Below are positions 21,160-54,179 of a stretch of 64,000 bases of DNA, piece by piece. The notes below the pieces were generated by a model. That model did not search any database and was not told where the DNA came from. It saw only the letters and a program-made list of their open reading frames with translations. Each line of letters begins with the position of its first letter. Position 1 is the stretch's first letter. The DNA comes from Cohnella herbarum. Lineage in GTDB: Bacteria; Bacillota; Bacilli; Paenibacillales; Paenibacillaceae. The stretch covers positions 1,674,001 through 1,738,000 of the forward strand of contig NZ_CP051680.1 of NCBI RefSeq assembly GCF_012849095.1, given 5' to 3'. A program made the position numbers and the translations under genes.

Positions 21160-21447
21160 AAAAAAAACCCACCCCCAAGACAGATGTCTTAGGGACGAGA
21201 TTTGAATGCTCGCGGTACCACCCCAGATTCGTTAACATGTCGCCATATTAACCTCTTCAAGTACGGCATTACCAAGTAATGCTTATACTCTAGCCCTGTA
21301 ACAGGAGCCCCTGTCACGCCATCCCCTTGAGGTTCCGACGCGCTGCTCAGAGTCTTTTTTCAATAATGAACTCTTTACTCCTTTTCAGCTGCCGGAGCTC
21401 TCTGCCAAAGACTTCATTTATTTACTCGTCTCTTCGTTGCATTTGTT
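21160..21447 (-). ncRNA. T-box leader of asd
   Basis: On the minus strand the leader contains the T-box core GGTGGTACCGCG (core at 21211-21220), which pairs with the tRNA acceptor end. It is followed by a strong terminator stem (CCCTAAGACA / TGTCTTGGGG, 21160-21198) and a run of eight Ts. A -10 element TATAAT lies at 21454-21459. Stem I with its AG-rich distal loops is visible between about 21340 and 21430, but I could not fix the specifier codon with confidence. It ends about 110 bp before asd. Confidence 0.92.
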
Positions 21448-39550: not shown

Positions 39551-39570
39551 GTTGAACTCTACTGTAAGCC

Positions 39571-39700
39571 GCTGTGAGCGGTCTATTTGGTCGAAAACCG
39601 CGGAGCTGTGGGCTGTAGACCGCTGTGAGCGGTCTATTTGGTTGAAAACTGCGGAACTGTTGGCTGTAATCCTCTGTGAGCGGTCTATAAAAATCGCATT
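39571..39700. repeat. 51-bp tandem repeat, about 2.5 units
   Basis: Units start at 39571, 39622 and 39673, exactly 51 bp apart. Each begins CTGTGAGCGGTCTAT, and the first two contain the hairpin CCGCT-GTG-AGCGG. The third is cut after about 28 bp. Confidence 0.8.
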
Positions 39701-41464: not shown

Positions 41465-44400
41465 TTAATGAATGATCAGTCCGAAACCGCTCTGAATGAA
41501 ATACAGATTCGGATGAGCGATATTGCTGGTCGTCAGATTATTGAAAGTAGCGCTACCGTTGCCCGTGTAAGTGTAGATTGCCGCACCCGGGTGAGGCGTC
41601 GTGAACCGCGAAGTGGTAATCCCGTCTAAGCCGGTACCGTTAATATTGATAGTGTTGAACACGATATTCTCGAATCCGCCGCCGTACCCGAACTGGATAG
41701 CGCTGCGCTGAGTGTTCAGGATATCGATGTTCGTAAAAGTGACGTTCTTAATGGAATCGTTGGAAGCTTCCAGATCGATCGCGCCGCGTTCGCCGTTGTA
41801 CAGATCTTTACTTGTTCCGCTGTTGATGATAGTCGTGTCCGAGAACAGAATACCGGTATTGTTCTGGAAGTGGTAACCTGGGAACACGGTATTCATTCGG
41901 ATTGCGGAACCGCCTACGGTGTCTTTGATCAAATTGTTAGTAGCCTTGTGACCGCCGCCTCCGAAAAACGCGATGCCTCCCGCGCGCCAGTTGTTCTCGA
42001 TCGTGTTAAAGGAGAACGTATTATTCACTCCCGCGGGCGCCCCGTTAACGTTACTCGTCCATACGGCAAGTCCGTCATCGCCGTTATTGCGAATGCTGCT
42101 GTTGCGTACGGTCGAGTTGCTTGTTCCTTGCGCGAAATTAACGCCGTCGGCTAAGTTGTTCCGGATCCGACTGTTCTCGATCACCAGTCCGCTCGCAATG
42201 ATTGCCGGCGTATGCGCGTAGTCTCCGACCCAGAACCCGCATTCGAAGTGCTCTACCCAGACGTTGTGCACTTTGGAATTGGTTCCGAAGTTATCCATGA
42301 AAGCTTTGTATATGGCTCCCTCGTGATAACGAGATCGCAAGTTCGAATTCATATAGATGTGGCTAAAATCAAGCTGTCCCTGGATGCGGAAAGAGATACC
42401 GCCTCCCGACACATTGGGGTTGGTGAACTGGATGTTCGTGTGCCAGATTCCGGCGCCCATGATCGTGAAGTTGTTGAGCTTATTAGCGACGGTACCGATC
42501 TTCCACATGCTGCTAAGATGAAAAGTTCCTTCAGGGATATACAAGGATTTGCCGCTCGCGACCGCCGCCGTTACCGCGGCTTCGAAGGCCGCAAGATCAT
42601 CCTGACCGTCGTTCGCGACGGCTCCGTGATCGGTTACGGAAACGGAGTTGGCCGGACGCGCGATGGCTGTCGGAACCGGCTCGATCTCCAGGAAGTCGAC
42701 GCCGTATTCAATGCTGTCGTTGGCTTTTTGAATGCGAATCGTGTCTCCGGGTTGTAGAGGCGTATCCAGTTTCCAATGAACTTCATCGAATCGGAACAGC
42801 GGCCGTCCACCGGAAGGCGTATCGGCAGGTTGATCGCTCGAGAAATACTGCCAGTTGTAGTAGGACGTCAAAGGCACGGTTTTGACCTTGGCTCCGTTCA
42901 CGTAAACGTCAAGCGATCCGTTTAGTCCCATGCCGTTCGACGAATCCGGCATCGTAAATCTCATCGTAACGCCCGCGCCGCCTTGCCCTTGCTTAACGGT
43001 CCATTGCAAGTAGGAGCCGTTCGAAGGAAGCGAGATATAGCGTTGATCGGAAGCTTCGGAAGCGATCAGCGATTGATCGAACGTCGGCGCCGTCTGAAGC
43101 GTCGCTCCTCCGCCGCGGGTAGCGTCGTCGGTATCGTATCGGCTATACGGCATGCTCGCTCCTCGAGCGGAATAGACGACAAGATTCGTTGTACTCGTAT
43201 TATTCGCTTGCTTAATCGCTAATTCGTTAGCGTCTACCGCTGCGGTAGTCGTAACCGTATAGCTGCCGTTAATCGCCGTCCACGTCCCCGGAATGTTAAC
43301 GATCGCGGATGCTCCCGTGGCTAAAGTGCCGTTATAGGATCCGCTAAAGCTTTGGATCGTTGCCCCGGCGGCATTTTTAAGCACGACTGTAATTCCGTGG
43401 GCTCCGGCTGCGGAAGCAATCGTTCCTTGGTTTTTCAGATTGACGGCAAAGGAAACCGAATTGTTGGCGACCGGAGTGGTCGGAGTCCAAGATACGGCGG
43501 CTACGAGATCGGAGCTTGAAACGGGAACAACGGTAAGCGAAGTCGGTTGCGTATAATTGTTGTTCGATTCGTTCTGCTCGATGATCGCGTTGTTCTCGTC
43601 TACCTTGGCGCTGACCGAGTAGGTAGCGGAGGATTTCGTACCCGCGTTTACCGATACCGTGGTTGTAGCGCCAGCCGCAAGTCCCGCTACCGGAGCGGTG
43701 CCCGCCAACTCGTTGTTCAGATAGAAATTCACGTTCGTCGCCGCGGAGCTGGCGGTTCCGTTGTTCTTAACCGTAGCGTTCAAAGTAATGGCGCTGGTCT
43801 CGACCGGAGACGTCGGCGACCAAGATATGCCGGTGATCGTCAGATCCGGATTCGCCGAAGGCGTTCCGAACGCTTGGAACTCGGCGATCTGTCCGGCCGG
43901 TGCGCCGGTGTTGGACGTAATGTTAAGCTGTAGACGTTTCACCGTCGCCGTTACCGGAATCGTTACCGAATTGCCGGAGGCCGGATTAAACGTATACGAT
44001 TGCGCGGATACGAGATTGCTAAAGGTCGTCGTGTTCTGATTGTGGCCGAGCACTTGAATCGTTTGCGTGCGCGTGCCCCATATCGAAGCCGGATTCAGCT
44101 TAAGCACGATAGACGTAATGTCATGGTTCGCCGCGAGATCAAGCGTTAACGTGCTTGGATTGCCGCCGCCTTCCCAATAGGTGTTGGTGTCGTTGTCGTT
44201 AGCGTTGGATGCCACGAAAGTTTGCGTGTTGGAGGATGCGGTGATCGATTTGCCGATCGCGATGTTGCTGCCGGGAGGCGGTGTCGGTGTTGGTGTTGGT
44301 GTCGGTGTTGGTGTTGGTGTCGGTGTTGGTGTTGGTGTCGGTGTTGGTGTTGGTGTTGGTGTCGGTGTTGGCGTAGGAGTTGGAGTCGGTGTTGGAGTCG

Positions 44401-45355
44401 GTGTTGTTGTCGTATCTACCGTGATTTGGTCAAGGTTAACGTTGCCGGAATCGCCCGCATCGTATTTGTAGGCAATCGTGTTGTTCCCCCCATTGAGGGT
44501 AAGAACTTCTTGTTTGCTCCCCCACGTATCCCAGTTCGCCAGACTAGGCAGAGAGGTTTGAAGGATTTTCGAACCGTTGACGTAGACGCTTACCGTCTTC
44601 GCGCTTCCGCTTGCGTTGGCGTACTTAAGCGTAACGTTGCGACTGCCAGCAGTCGGCACGGTAACGGTGAACGTCGTCGCCGCCCCTTGCGTCCAATATC
44701 CGTCAACAAAACCGGTTCCGGAGTAGCCGCTATGATCCGTATTCACTTTCGCCCCTCCCGACAATGCGGCAGCTTCGGCTTGGTAAGTGCCCGACGGCGG
44801 AGGCGTTGGCGTCGGACTTGGCGTCGGCGTTGGCCCGCTCGTACCGTATATTTCGAATTCCGACAGCTGAGCTGCCTGCCAGCCCGTATTCCCGGTAACG
44901 TTCAGCCGAACGTATCGGGTACTCGTAGCCGCAAAGTCGATCGTGACCGAGTTGCCTGCGACCGTAGGATTGAACGCATAACCCGCGGACCCTACGATGT
45001 TCGAGAATGTCGTTCCGTTCTCGCTCCCCTGCACGGCCAGCGTTTGCGTACGCGCTTCCCAACCTGCGGGAATTTTCAGAACGATCTGATCAATGCTCGT
45101 ATTCGCCCCAAGATCAACTTGAATCCATTGAGGGAATGCATTGTTCGTGCTCTCCCAATAGGTGCTTGCGTTGCCGTCTTTCGCGTTATCCGGTCCGTAG
45201 ACGTCGGCGTACCCGCTCGCCGTTACGGTTTTGCCCAGTGTCAGATTCGTCCCGCCAGCCGCGGAAACAACATCTGGAGATCCGACAGACAGAAAAAAGC
45301 CCGAGATTAGCATGGTAACGATAAGAGACCATGCGACGTACTTGCCTGTGCGCAT
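41465..45355 (-). CDS. Secreted alpha-1,3-glucanase (GH87), multidomain
   Basis: The 1296-residue protein should cleave alpha-1,3-glucan (mutan, fungal wall glucan) outside the cell. Order of parts: signal peptide (1-32), discoidin domain (33-170), CBM6-like domain (190-315), Thr-Pro linker (316-361), second discoidin domain (365-498), two CARDB domains (503-735), a beta-sandwich, and a right-handed beta-helix catalytic part (about 885-1296). Asp1070, Asp1093 and Asp1094 have the same spacing as the catalytic aspartates reported for Paenibacillus GH87 enzymes. The layout matches Agl-KA of Bacillus circulans apart from the CARDB pair. Confidence 0.9.
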   Translation of the reverse strand: MRTGKYVAWSLIVTMLISGFFLSVGSPDVVSAAGGTNLTLGKTVTASGYADVYGPDNAKDGNASTYWESTNNAFPQWIQVDLGANTSIDQIVLKIPAGWEARTQTLAVQGSENGTTFSNIVGSAGYAFNPTVAGNSVTIDFAATSTRYVRLNVTGNTGWQAAQLSEFEIYGTSGPTPTPSPTPTPPPSGTYQAEAAALSGGAKVNTDHSGYSGTGFVDGYWTQGAATTFTVTVPTAGSRNVTLKYANASGSAKTVSVYVNGSKILQTSLPSLANWDTWGSKQEVLTLNGGNNTIAYKYDAGDSGNVNLDQITVDTTTTPTPTPTPTPTPTPTPTPTPTPTPTPTPTPTPTPTPTPTPTPPPGSNIAIGKSITASSNTQTFVASNANDNDTNTYWEGGGNPSTLTLDLAANHDITSIVLKLNPASIWGTRTQTIQVLGHNQNTTTFSNLVSAQSYTFNPASGNSVTIPVTATVKRLQLNITSNTGAPAGQIAEFQAFGTPSANPDLTITGISWSPTSPVETSAITLNATVKNNGTASSAATNVNFYLNNELAGTAPVAGLAAGATTTVSVNAGTKSSATYSVSAKVDENNAIIEQNESNNNYTQPTSLTVVPVSSSDLVAAVSWTPTTPVANNSVSFAVNLKNQGTIASAAGAHGITVVLKNAAGATIQSFSGSYNGTLATGASAIVNIPGTWTAINGSYTVTTTAAVDANELAIKQANNTSTTNLVVYSARGASMPYSRYDTDDATRGGGATLQTAPTFDQSLIASEASDQRYISLPSNGSYLQWTVKQGQGGAGVTMRFTMPDSSNGMGLNGSLDVYVNGAKVKTVPLTSYYNWQYFSSDQPADTPSGGRPLFRFDEVHWKLDTPLQPGDTIRIQKANDSIEYGVDFLEIEPVPTAIARPANSVSVTDHGAVANDGQDDLAAFEAAVTAAVASGKSLYIPEGTFHLSSMWKIGTVANKLNNFTIMGAGIWHTNIQFTNPNVSGGGISFRIQGQLDFSHIYMNSNLRSRYHEGAIYKAFMDNFGTNSKVHNVWVEHFECGFWVGDYAHTPAIIASGLVIENSRIRNNLADGVNFAQGTSNSTVRNSSIRNNGDDGLAVWTSNVNGAPAGVNNTFSFNTIENNWRAGGIAFFGGGGHKATNNLIKDTVGGSAIRMNTVFPGYHFQNNTGILFSDTTIINSGTSKDLYNGERGAIDLEASNDSIKNVTFTNIDILNTQRSAIQFGYGGGFENIVFNTININGTGLDGITTSRFTTPHPGAAIYTYTGNGSATFNNLTTSNIAHPNLYFIQSGFGLIIH
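44275..44410. repeat. 6-bp microsatellite encoding the Thr-Pro linker
   Basis: Alternating GGTGTT/GGTGTC units on the plus strand encode about 22 Pro-Thr pairs of the glucanase linker. Such runs are prone to length change in frame. Confidence 0.9.
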
Positions 45356-51621: not shown

Positions 51622-52914
51622 CTAGCCCCTTATCGCCGAAATTCCGTTCCAGCCGGCATTGTCCTCCAACATTTCGATGTTCGCACCGATCGATTGGAAC
51701 GATGCGACGATGTTCTCGTAACCTCGCTCGATATGGCCTACGCCCGTGATGGAAGTAACCCCTTCGGCGGCCAATCCGGCGATGAGCAGGCAAATGCCCG
51801 CCCGAACATCGGTGGCATGGACGAGCGTTCCCCTCAACGGCCTGCCGCCTTTAATAAGGGCGACGCCGGAACGAACGTTAATATCCGCCCCCATCCGGTT
51901 CAATTGGGCAACGTGCTGGTACCGCTTCGGATAGATCCGGTCGGCGACGATGCTTCTGCCGGATGCTTGCGTTAACAGCGCGGTCAGCGGTTGCTGCAGA
52001 TCGGTCGGAAAACCGGGATACATAGCGGTTCTTACCCGTGTTGCCCTAAGTCTACCGTATCGATAAGCGGTGATGGAATTGTCGGTCGTTTCGATGCCGA
52101 GGCCGATCTCGGTTAGTTTGGAGAGGCTTACGCCAAGATGCTCCGGGATGACGTCGTTAATCGTAATTGAACCTCCCGTTGCCCCCGCCGCGATCAAGAA
52201 GGAACCCGCGATCAGCCGATCCGGTATCGCCGTATAGTCGCAGCCGCGCAAAAAGGGTACGCCTTCGATCGCGATCGTGTCGGTGCCGGCTCCTCTGATT
52301 TTCGCTCCCATGCAGACGAGCATATTGGCGGTATCGACGACTTCCGGATCTCTGGCTGCTTGGCGCAATACCGTTTTCCCTTTCGCCCGGACGGCGGCAA
52401 GCATTGCGTTAATGGTCGCTCCAGAAGATATCGTATCGTAGTAAATATCCGCGCCATGAAGGCTCGAAGTTTCTACGTCGTAATAATCGCTATGGAAAGT
52501 AAACCTCGCGCCCATGGCTTCGAGCGCTTTAATATGCTGATCGATGGGACGGCTCACGAAGTCGTCGCCGCCGGGATATCCTAGGCTGACGTTACCGTAT
52601 TTGGCGAGCAATGCGCCGACGAAATAATACGCCGTGCGGAAGCTCGAAGCTTTAACCGGATCGATCTCCGTGGAATGAATGCCGCGCGAGTCAATCAGCA
52701 CGTCGTTATCCGCGTCGCGGCGGAAGTCGATGCCGATCTCTTCACCGATGCGGAAGAACACGTCCAAATCGGATATTCGCGGCATTCCGCGCAATATGAC
52801 GGGCTCGTCCGCGAGACAGGCCGCCGCCAACAAAGCAAGCGAGCTGTTCTTGGAGCCCGGAATCGCGATCGAGCCTCTGAGCGGGTAGGATGATTGAACT
52901 ACGATTCGTTTCAT
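51622..52914 (-). CDS. murA: UDP-GlcNAc enolpyruvyltransferase with Asp in place of catalytic Cys
   Basis: MurA adds enolpyruvate from PEP to UDP-N-acetylglucosamine, the first committed step of peptidoglycan synthesis. The 430-residue protein has the substrate lysine in PGSKNSS (about residues 19-25) and the arginine of SRPIDQH. The fosfomycin-target loop reads PGGDDFVSRP: Asp117 stands where nearly all MurA enzymes have Cys (E. coli Cys115). Natural Cys-to-Asp MurA enzymes (Mycobacterium, Chlamydia) are active and fosfomycin-resistant. The neighbouring FHA regulator and PBP suggest a wall-related locus. Whether another murA exists outside the window is not visible. Confidence 0.92.
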   Translation of the reverse strand: MKRIVVQSSYPLRGSIAIPGSKNSSLALLAAACLADEPVILRGMPRISDLDVFFRIGEEIGIDFRRDADNDVLIDSRGIHSTEIDPVKASSFRTAYYFVGALLAKYGNVSLGYPGGDDFVSRPIDQHIKALEAMGARFTFHSDYYDVETSSLHGADIYYDTISSGATINAMLAAVRAKGKTVLRQAARDPEVVDTANMLVCMGAKIRGAGTDTIAIEGVPFLRGCDYTAIPDRLIAGSFLIAAGATGGSITINDVIPEHLGVSLSKLTEIGLGIETTDNSITAYRYGRLRATRVRTAMYPGFPTDLQQPLTALLTQASGRSIVADRIYPKRYQHVAQLNRMGADINVRSGVALIKGGRPLRGTLVHATDVRAGICLLIAGLAAEGVTSITGVGHIERGYENIVASFQSIGANIEMLEDNAGWNGISAIRG

Positions 52915-53480
52915 GAAATCGTCTCCTCGTCGAGTGAGTGCGCTAACCGATTGCCAATTACTGAATCTATTGCCGCAGACAATCGCTTATGAAATGATAA
53001 TATTTCCATTTTTGGATCTTGGCGACGAATCACTCGATTATTTCGAGTAACTCTGGCACTCTTGGCTACGTGGCGACGAATTACTCGATTATTTCGAGTA
53101 ACTCCGACGCGTTTGGTTGCATGGTGACGAATTACTCGATTATTTCGAGTAACTCCGGCGCGTTTGGATGCGTGGCGACGAATTGCTCGATTATTTCGAG
53201 TAACTCTGGCGCGCTTGGCTGCGTGGCGACGAATTACTCGATTATTTCGAGTAACTCCGGCACTCTTGGCTGCGTGGCGACGAATTAGTCGATTATTTCG
53301 AGTAACTCCGGCGCGAGTGGCTGCGTGGCGACGAATTACTCGATTATTTCGAGTAACTCCAGCGCGTTTGAGCATTTGCCTTTTGCCGCTTGCAAATCCG
53401 GTAACCTTGGCCCATAATCATTCGTTATATGTAGAAGAAGCCTTCTTCTCTCAAAATTGTTTACGGAAAGAGGTTAATCT
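52915..53480. other. Intergenic region dominated by the 7-unit array
   Basis: Between murA and the divergent FHA gene there is a 51-bp tandem array (53021-53377) and then about 100 bp with the FHA gene's promoter region and ribosome site. Long frames across the array on both strands are by-products of the 51-bp period. Confidence 0.75.
53021..53377. repeat. Seven-unit 51-bp hairpin array
   Basis: Units start at 53021, 53072, 53123, 53174, 53225, 53276 and 53327, each exactly 51 bp. Almost all contain TTACTCGA-TTATT-TCGAGTAA, a perfect 8-bp inverted repeat with a 5-base loop, flanked by a GGCGACGAA segment. Occasional changes (CACTCG, TGCTCG, TAGTCG) fall in the left arm only. There are no spacers, so it is not CRISPR. 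Confidence 0.95.
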
Positions 53481-54179
53481 ATGAGTCTCAATTCCTGTCT
53501 CGTGGTCGTACGAGGATTTCCATATGACGAAGGATCAACGCTTCAGATCCAACGTAACAGCGTTATTCTAGGAAGGAAAGACGCGGAATGGGAACCGGAC
53601 ATCGGATTCGAGAACGTCTACGTCTCCAGAAAACAGGCCTCCATCAGCTATGAGAACGGAAACTATACCGTCATGGACTTCGATAGTAAACACGGGACGG
53701 AAGTTAACGGAATAAAGCTAACTCCGTTCGTACCGTCCGCTCTCCGTTCGTCGGACGTCATCACCTTCGCCAAAGGGATGATCTGTCTGACCTTCTCCAC
53801 GCGAATGTGGGAGGAGACGATGGACTTCTCGCCGGTGACCCATGCCTCCGCCGCCTCTGCCTCCGACGACTATCAATTGGATCCGGTTAGGCAGCTTCTC
53901 GTCCTGCAAGATCTAAACTATTCCTTCTCCGACAAGGAATACAAATGTCTGGAACTGCTCTTGCGCAAGGAGCGACAATTCGTCGGCAAGGAAGAGATCA
54001 TTCGTTACGTGTGGCCGGAAAGATACGAAGAGGACGAGATTCCCGCCGCAAGCTCCGAGGAGATCAATTCTTTGCTCTACCGGATTCGCAAGAAGACGCA
54101 TCCCGTCATCTCCATCGAAAATATTCGCGGCAAAGGCTATATTCTTACTCTTTCAAGGTTTGCTGAAAAATACGTTTAA
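53481..54179 (+). CDS. FHA domain fused to OmpR-type winged helix
   Basis: A 232-residue regulator. The N-terminal 100 residues are an FHA domain (ILGRKDAE, VSRKQASI, DSKHGTEVNG). The usual phosphothreonine-site histidine and asparagine are replaced by glutamine and histidine, so binding may differ. The C-terminal part is a winged helix (LRKERQFVGKEEIIRYVWP, RIRKKTHPVISIENIRGKGY). The order is the reverse of M. tuberculosis EmbR. It may link Ser/Thr kinase signals to the adjacent cell-wall genes. It converges with the PBP gene, overlapping it by 35 bp. Confidence 0.88.
   Translation: MSLNSCLVVVRGFPYDEGSTLQIQRNSVILGRKDAEWEPDIGFENVYVSRKQASISYENGNYTVMDFDSKHGTEVNGIKLTPFVPSALRSSDVITFAKGMICLTFSTRMWEETMDFSPVTHASAASASDDYQLDPVRQLLVLQDLNYSFSDKEYKCLELLLRKERQFVGKEEIIRYVWPERYEEDEIPAASSEEINSLLYRIRKKTHPVISIENIRGKGYILTLSRFAEKYV

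Follow-up and report, generated by a model that had tools for sequence, protein, structure and literature searches.

What kind of element is a run of seven tandem 51-bp units, each with two complementary arms around a short loop, that lies between two divergent genes of Cohnella herbarum, and what may keep the length and the symmetry of its unit? The array was found in a stretch of 64,000 nucleotides of contig NZ_CP051680.1 (positions 1,674,001 to 1,738,000), here called the window, and the coordinates of the array, its dyads and its neighbours are given in Table 1.

Table 1. Repeat arrays, dyads and flanking genes in the window
Feature	Position	Strand	Remark
MurA-type protein, EPSP synthase family (EPSP_synthase PF00275), neighbour	51622..52914	-	
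FHA and Trans_reg_C protein, neighbour	53481..54179	+	
Seven-unit array, family 1	53019..53375	+	51-bp units; TRF and unit alignment
Dyad 1, one arm change	53030..53050	.	core search and unit alignment
Dyad 2, perfect	53081..53101	.	core search and unit alignment
Dyad 3, perfect	53132..53152	.	core search and unit alignment
Dyad 4, one arm change	53183..53203	.	core search and unit alignment
Dyad 5, perfect	53234..53254	.	core search and unit alignment
Dyad 6, one arm change	53285..53305	.	core search and unit alignment
Dyad 7, perfect	53336..53356	.	core search and unit alignment
Second window array, family 2, ~2.5 copies of 51 bp	39562..39688	.	three dyads at 51-bp spacing, beginning with 39565-39585

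The seven-unit array and its gap

Cut at 51 bp from position 53019, the array consists of seven gapless units with a mean column identity of 92%, and TRF reported it at 53020-53370 with a period of 51, 6.9 copies, 0% indels and a score of 555, which bears out the seven units of constant period described in an earlier note on this DNA. All units have the same 3' arm, TCGAGTAA, and the same loop, TTATT; TCGA and its reverse are present in all seven, and the spacers are near-identical between units. Base changes are confined to the spacer or the 5' arm, as had been claimed, whereas the description of all seven hairpins as perfect was too strong: the stems are perfect in four units, and units 1, 4 and 6 carry one 5'-arm change each. 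Moreover, the array does not fill its gap, as had been stated: 104 bp (52915-53018) separate it from murA and 105 bp (53376-53480) from the ATG start codon of the FHA gene. Rfam assigned no family to the array at gathering score; its matches in the window were a T-box and tRNA only, the T-box leader being located at 21188-21446 on the minus strand. With repeated spacers, a genome without Y1 transposase and no Rfam family, the view that the array is not a CRISPR, a REP or a known riboswitch is upheld.

The unit of the window array, designated family 1, recurs in the genome. Its 19-bp core gave 85 matches with up to three mismatches in the whole genome (8.52 Mb, two contigs) and none with a backward-read control, so the window array is not a product of chance. 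As counted from the listed match places, the unit forms 13 tandem clusters, the window one included, and five matches lie outside tandem runs, one of which is a solo unit behind a gene (L045), while the other four have no second copy nearby and are chance-like. With up to two mismatches the core was found in 11 of 37 genomes of the genus, host included. The earlier note had reserved the interpretation as a local slippage product for a unit found once per genome, and the 13 arrays here and the 11 genus genomes depart from that case, so that the check speaks in favour of the note. Among 295 family genomes drawn from a larger group, a 17-mer with up to one mismatch matched 27, of which ten belong to the host genus and 17 lie outside; all genomes with more than one match are in the host genus, and the 17 single matches outside it compare with 14 single control matches. 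An exact 21-mer had no match in a genome-contig collection that may omit the host genome. Finally, no replication-strand bias of family-1 arrays was seen by eye when the origin was assumed at the contig start (first contig half, 4 arrays plus and 3 minus; second half, 3 and 3).

The position of the array between two divergent starts could point to a regulatory element particular to the murA-FHA promoter region. This is very unlikely, given that the same units constitute 12 other arrays of the genome and that the orthologous gap of genus genome G024 (L105), ~110 bp long, holds no array, although the stretch upstream of the FHA gene appears similar by eye in that genome and in the window. G024 (MurA 75%, FHA 69%) was the only case of a divergent murA-FHA pair among 18 FHA-gene loci from other genus genomes; among the best 80 of 324 confirmed stretches, MurA relatives were found in C. 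endophytica (81%) and Cohnella sp. SGD-V74 (75%). In the earlier description of two divergent cell-wall-related genes, a cell-wall role of the FHA and Trans_reg_C protein is only putative, and with the unit in 12 other arrays and the array-free G024 gap, the proposed link of the array to murA, FHA or the cell wall is unsupported.

One unit length, many sequences

DNA like the second window array occurs at ten other places in the genome, two of which are only 28-32 bp long, and TRF analysis of fetched loci revealed many arrays of 50-52 bp with differing sequences, some of them back to back. In forty hand-spread 20-kb stretches of the host genome (800 kb; arrays counted at a period of at least 20 and a score of at least 100), seven of 11 noncoding arrays had a period of 51 bp and the others one each of 58, 184, 191 and 258, and from these seven a rough extrapolation gives ~75 arrays per genome. 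In 700 kb of other genus genomes (35 stretches, 15 of them on contigs known from earlier matches, after exclusion of five stretches on known matches), 12 of 18 noncoding arrays had a period of 51 or 52, the remainder having 27, 30, 36, 41, 64 and 118. None of the eight coding arrays in these two samples had a period of 51-52. A 12/18-bp in-gene tandem repeat was observed in the window at 44279-44412, within a large predicted gene (41465-45355). Outside the genus the arrays are rare in the sampled DNA: none was found in the 337 kb obtained from other family genera (17 of 20 stretches), two in 589 kb around murA in the Paenibacillus group, and none in 834 kb around murA of other bacteria.

A genus set was compiled of 85 non-redundant array entries with periods of 49-53, in which many loci were selected by matches rather than at random and one array was entered twice. 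The period is 51 in 62 entries, 52 in 20 and 50 in 3, and a multiple of three, to which the earlier note had drawn attention, is therefore not the constraint. The same counts bear on a coding repeat, in which 51 bp would correspond to 17 codons of a repeated peptide and for which three frames through the window array are open for 89, 106 and 154 codons. Besides the 23 entries at 52 or 50, arrays with a period of 51-52 have 0% overlap with predicted genes, apart from one at 2%, and a protein search with the 154-residue frame gave no homologue at E <= 1e-3; on these three grounds the coding repeat was rejected and can practically be dismissed. Single linkage at 18 of 24 matches divides the 85 arrays into 14 families, the largest of which chains 62 of them together.

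Several observations concern the immediate surroundings of these arrays. In L033, L035, L036 and L041, family-1 arrays adjoin 52-bp arrays with another kind of dyad at a distance of 10-90 bp. A 50-bp element end starting with GGTAGCGTCAAGTAGTCTGTG, probably the end of an insertion sequence, abuts 51-bp arrays at two places and lies near one at a third (L084:14661-14710, L278:10523-10572, L034:7979-8028), and a short element with GAGGCTGTCGATT inverted ends occupies the loop of one dyad within a 51-bp array (L034:7722-7890). A 41-bp array, about one helical turn under the usual unit, is found in genus genome G018 (L221:18519-18788), and arrays of 40-42 and 62 bp (~4 and 6 turns) occur in Ruoffia, Fundicoccus, Heyndrickxia and Ornithinibacillus (L175:7148-7497, L176:17061-17643, L139:3544-3748, L148:1563-1685). 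A helical quantisation of periods, with values near 40-42 and 62 in other genera, is suggestive only, because 27, 30, 36, 58, 64 and 118 also occur within the genus.

The arrays occupy particular gaps. With the analysis's own gene finder and loci that were partly array-selected, 35 gaps with arrays comprised 25 co-directional, 8 convergent and 2 divergent ones, as compared to 356, 51 and 133 among 540 other gaps of 150-2500 bp, so that divergent gaps are depleted (2/35 versus 133/540, p = 0.007) and convergent gaps enriched (8/35 versus 51/540, p = 0.019). Arrays lie nearer to gene ends than to gene starts, with median distances of 95 bp to a 3' end and 260 bp to a 5' end. Since arrays avoid divergent gaps, the site of the window array, which is among the two divergent-gap cases, is atypical. 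A terminator detector too strict to discriminate between the two sets found terminators before 4 of 31 arrays and at 57 of 457 other 3' ends. In three relatives, ~80-86% alike over the locus, a 51-bp array is kept at the same place past what by eye appears to be the end of the same gene, which suggests that arrays can be old.

Tandem repeats with a constant length (52 or 20-21 nt) and a variable sequence were described in Bacillus and other Firmicutes by Subirana and Messeguer, who called them enigmatic, length being conserved and sequence not; the repeats are said to be abundant in Paenibacillus, short signals are noted within the unit, often with their reverse, and nucleoid binding or small RNA is proposed as a role (PMC8161180). 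Each testable feature of this class is found in the Cohnella arrays: units of 51-53 nt in most noncoding arrays (7 of 11 at 51 bp in the 800 kb), several families of the same length per genome, at least four repeats of which at least 60% have equal length (in the window array, all seven units of 51 bp), a noncoding location, and short signals often with their reverse (TCGA in the window units, TA-flanked dyads in 25 of the 85 entries). The window array very probably is one of the noncoding constant-length satellites, of the class of '52-nt tandem repeats', that extend throughout the genus, and there is little doubt that the units of this genus-wide set measure 50-52 bp, many with one TA-ended dyad of span 19 or 21 bp and a spacer of ~30 bp.

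The dyad and its possible reader

A strict dyad test, which called for TA at each end and for complementarity in 4 or more of the 5 inner pairs at spans of 15 to 29 bp, was passed by only 25 of the 85 entries. The span is 19 bp in 17 entries and 21 bp in 8, and any other span has 0 or 1 entry; shuffles predict 0.0 at span 19 and 0.17 at span 21, and across 200 shuffles of the set the two spans combined averaged 0.39 and reached 3 at most. Examples are TACTCGATTATTTCGAGTA, TAGGCGGAAAATCCGTCTA, TAACCCGACTGGGTCGGGCTA and TAACGGTGCTAGGCACCGCTA. The span counts are inflated by related arrays, and one array entered them as two pieces: grouping at 70% identity reduces the 17 span-19 dyads to 2 groups and the 8 span-21 dyads to 6. 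Diversity of arms at one span is therefore shown mainly at span 21, span 19 representing mainly one family and its variants.

Palindromes are likewise more frequent than expected, 36 of the 85 arrays having a best palindrome of 7 or 8 of 8 positions (6.7 expected), but the longest perfect stem averages only 4.6 in the 85 entries versus 3.8 in shuffles. When each of the 14 linkage families is represented once, only a weak palindrome excess remains: 7 families pair at 6 or more of 7 positions (3.7 expected, with shuffles up to 9) and 2 at all 7 (0.22 expected). Common descent with changing arms accounts for the dyads as well as convergence does. A degenerate pattern for another family gave 186 matches versus 250 in its control. 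A dyad per unit is common in published Bacillus units too, with other ends: of the 24 units tested, out of 27 consensus units in Table 1 of PMC8161180, 19 pair at 6 or more of 7 palindrome positions (4.5 expected) and 9 at 7 of 7 (0.25 expected), and four of the tested units, from three species, have a common 27-bp TGTC..GACA form.

In 46 arrays, the centres of successive dyads are separated by 51 bp in 174 of 229 cases, by 52 bp in 41 and by 50 bp in 5; exceptional spacings are few (37 twice, 41, 81, 100 twice and 103), and 37 is off the helical phase. Divergence from the array consensus, determined for 188 units of 28 arrays, is lowest at the TA ends (5.6%) and increases through the arm (7.1%), the loop (8.4%) and the next five bases (9.1%) to the other spacer (16%). 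The dyad is better kept than the rest in 24 of the 28 arrays (p = 1.1e-5) and changes about half as fast as the remaining unit, a comparison in which the dyad-anchored alignment may inflate spacer divergence and in which gene conversion could be an alternative cause. Double changes that keep a pair numbered 13 versus 3.2 expected, in copies that share descent and are not independent. Outward from the terminal dyads of 43 arrays, the identity to the spacer drops from ~0.8 to 0.3-0.5; a good part of these arrays start or stop at a dyad, and the others continue into spacer.

We propose, with a probability of about 0.42, that the dyads are putative dimer-binding sites placed five helical turns apart and bound cooperatively. 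Each dyad would be the site of a dimeric DNA-binding protein, and since the units recur about every five helical turns, the dimers would be aligned along one side of the helix, each in contact with the next. The result would be a cooperatively bound stretch just behind genes that may, for example, help to fold the nucleoid or form a topological or transcription barrier. The differences between arms could mean that the protein reads mainly ends and geometry, or that related proteins read different arms, and arrays would grow, shrink and homogenise by slippage or unequal recombination. The earlier suggestion that the period reflects about five helical turns is retained to the extent that the length fits regular protein binding or nucleoid organisation, an idea shared by the authors of PMC8161180. 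The fixed period, the preferred spans, the slower change of the dyads, the 3'-proximal place, the Bacillus palindromes and the persistence at one place are in support of cooperative binding, and the inflation of the span counts by related arrays, the weak palindrome excess at one array per family, the short perfect stems, the off-phase spacing of 37 and the passing of the strict test by 25 of 85 entries count against it.

A neutral or selfish satellite is almost as likely. Its palindromic unit would promote slippage, spread by recombination and be tolerated behind genes; the period and the dyad would be inherited from a few founders, and the position would result from purging from promoters, harmless insertions being expected to avoid divergent gaps as well. 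Such an origin agrees with arrays at different places that are alike lengthwise (84% over 439 bp for L041 and L042; by eye, in their consensus units, for L034 and L035), with higher-order repeats of 102-104 bp and 153 bp, which show growth in blocks, and with the chaining of 62 of the 85 arrays and the derivation of the span-19 dyads mostly from one family, which make inheritance possible. However, slippage sets no length, yet dissimilar families and separate genera hold 50-53 bp; moreover, span 21 is common to six unlike dyads, and a single solo unit of family 1 stands against 13 arrays. Because the span-19 dyads are mostly one family, the probability of cooperative binding was lowered to the value given above and that of the neutral satellite raised, and the two are close, with binding ahead.

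The 3'-proximal position could also reflect a role in RNA, the arrays being transcribed from the upstream gene and their hairpins acting as 3'-UTR stabilisers, sponges or small RNAs. Relative to co-directional neighbours, family-1 arrays are oriented one way in 17 cases and the other way in 6 (33 entries, one array counted twice among the 6; hand-worked binomial p about 0.035), a preference that fits transcription and is not predicted by the binding model, and for B. coagulans, transcripts of 52-nt repeats have been reported from RNA-seq (PMC8161180 and PMC8625621). Nonetheless, such a role is unlikely. An RNA helix under selection should favour G-U, and no RNA-pairing signature was found: in co-directional gaps the mismatches on the transcript strand comprise 22 G-U, 41 A-C and 129 others, with G-U ahead in 9 arrays, A-C in 11 and 10 ties. 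Furthermore, the family-1 consensus dyads often have G-G, A-G or A-A mismatches by eye, Rfam gave no family at gathering score, and 1 of 85 units is terminator-like by the strict detector.

It is conceivable, though improbable, that one protein or a small protein family of Bacilli reads geometry, namely the two ends of a fixed-span dyad and the dyad that follows five turns later. The arm letters could then drift freely provided that they stay complementary, for instance if the protein bound an extruded hairpin, and constant-length satellites would amount to a bacterial chromatin element coded by spacing and symmetry and not by sequence. The preferred-span dyad and the Bacillus palindromes provide a concrete target, a reader of a TA-ended dyad of 19 or 21 bp every 51 bp.

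Comparison with known repeats

The Cohnella arrays share with the 52-nt repeats a constant unit of 51-53 nt, many families per genome, a noncoding location, mostly short arrays and lineage-specific sequences; unlike the Bacillus repeats, their modal unit is 51 and not 52. The preferred-span TA dyads, their slower change, the 3'-proximal place and the lack of an RNA-pairing signature in Cohnella go beyond the published description. The words 'Cohnella', 'palindrom' and 'intergenic' have no occurrence in the available main text of PMC8161180, and the dyad-span rule was not found in that text; as judged by titles and abstract starts, no literature on Cohnella satellites was found. New here is the dyad-span rule (19/21 bp) in the arrays of the genus, the class itself being published.

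REP elements have a RAYT partner, and a REP-like element moved by a Y1 (RAYT) transposase would explain extragenic palindromes that are dispersed and have a T-A-R foot next to the stem. For the host genome this origin was rejected and is extremely improbable, as PF01797 had no match at E <= 1e-5 (completeness 100, two contigs), matches being present in 11 of 37 genus genomes; in addition, the units are tandem with almost no singletons (of five non-tandem family-1 matches, one solo unit), unlike the singletons and inverted dimers of REP, and a constant GTAG or CGTC tag is absent, the letters GTAG occurring in a few dyad flanks. Like the arrays, REP and BIME are dispersed extragenic palindromes, some in tandem, for which roles in supercoiling have been proposed (PMC3733652), and they differ in carrying a GTAG or CGTC tag, whereas the Cohnella arrays are head-to-tail in a genome without Y1 transposase. 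CRISPR resembles the arrays in its palindromic repeat and regular spacing, and some arrays end at a dyad, but the spacers of the window array are near-identical and not unique, and there are many arrays per genome. The MIRUs of mycobacteria are dispersed intergenic minisatellites of about 50-100 bp that constitute one or a few related sequences; unlike these, the Cohnella arrays combine several unlike arm sequences with one unit length.
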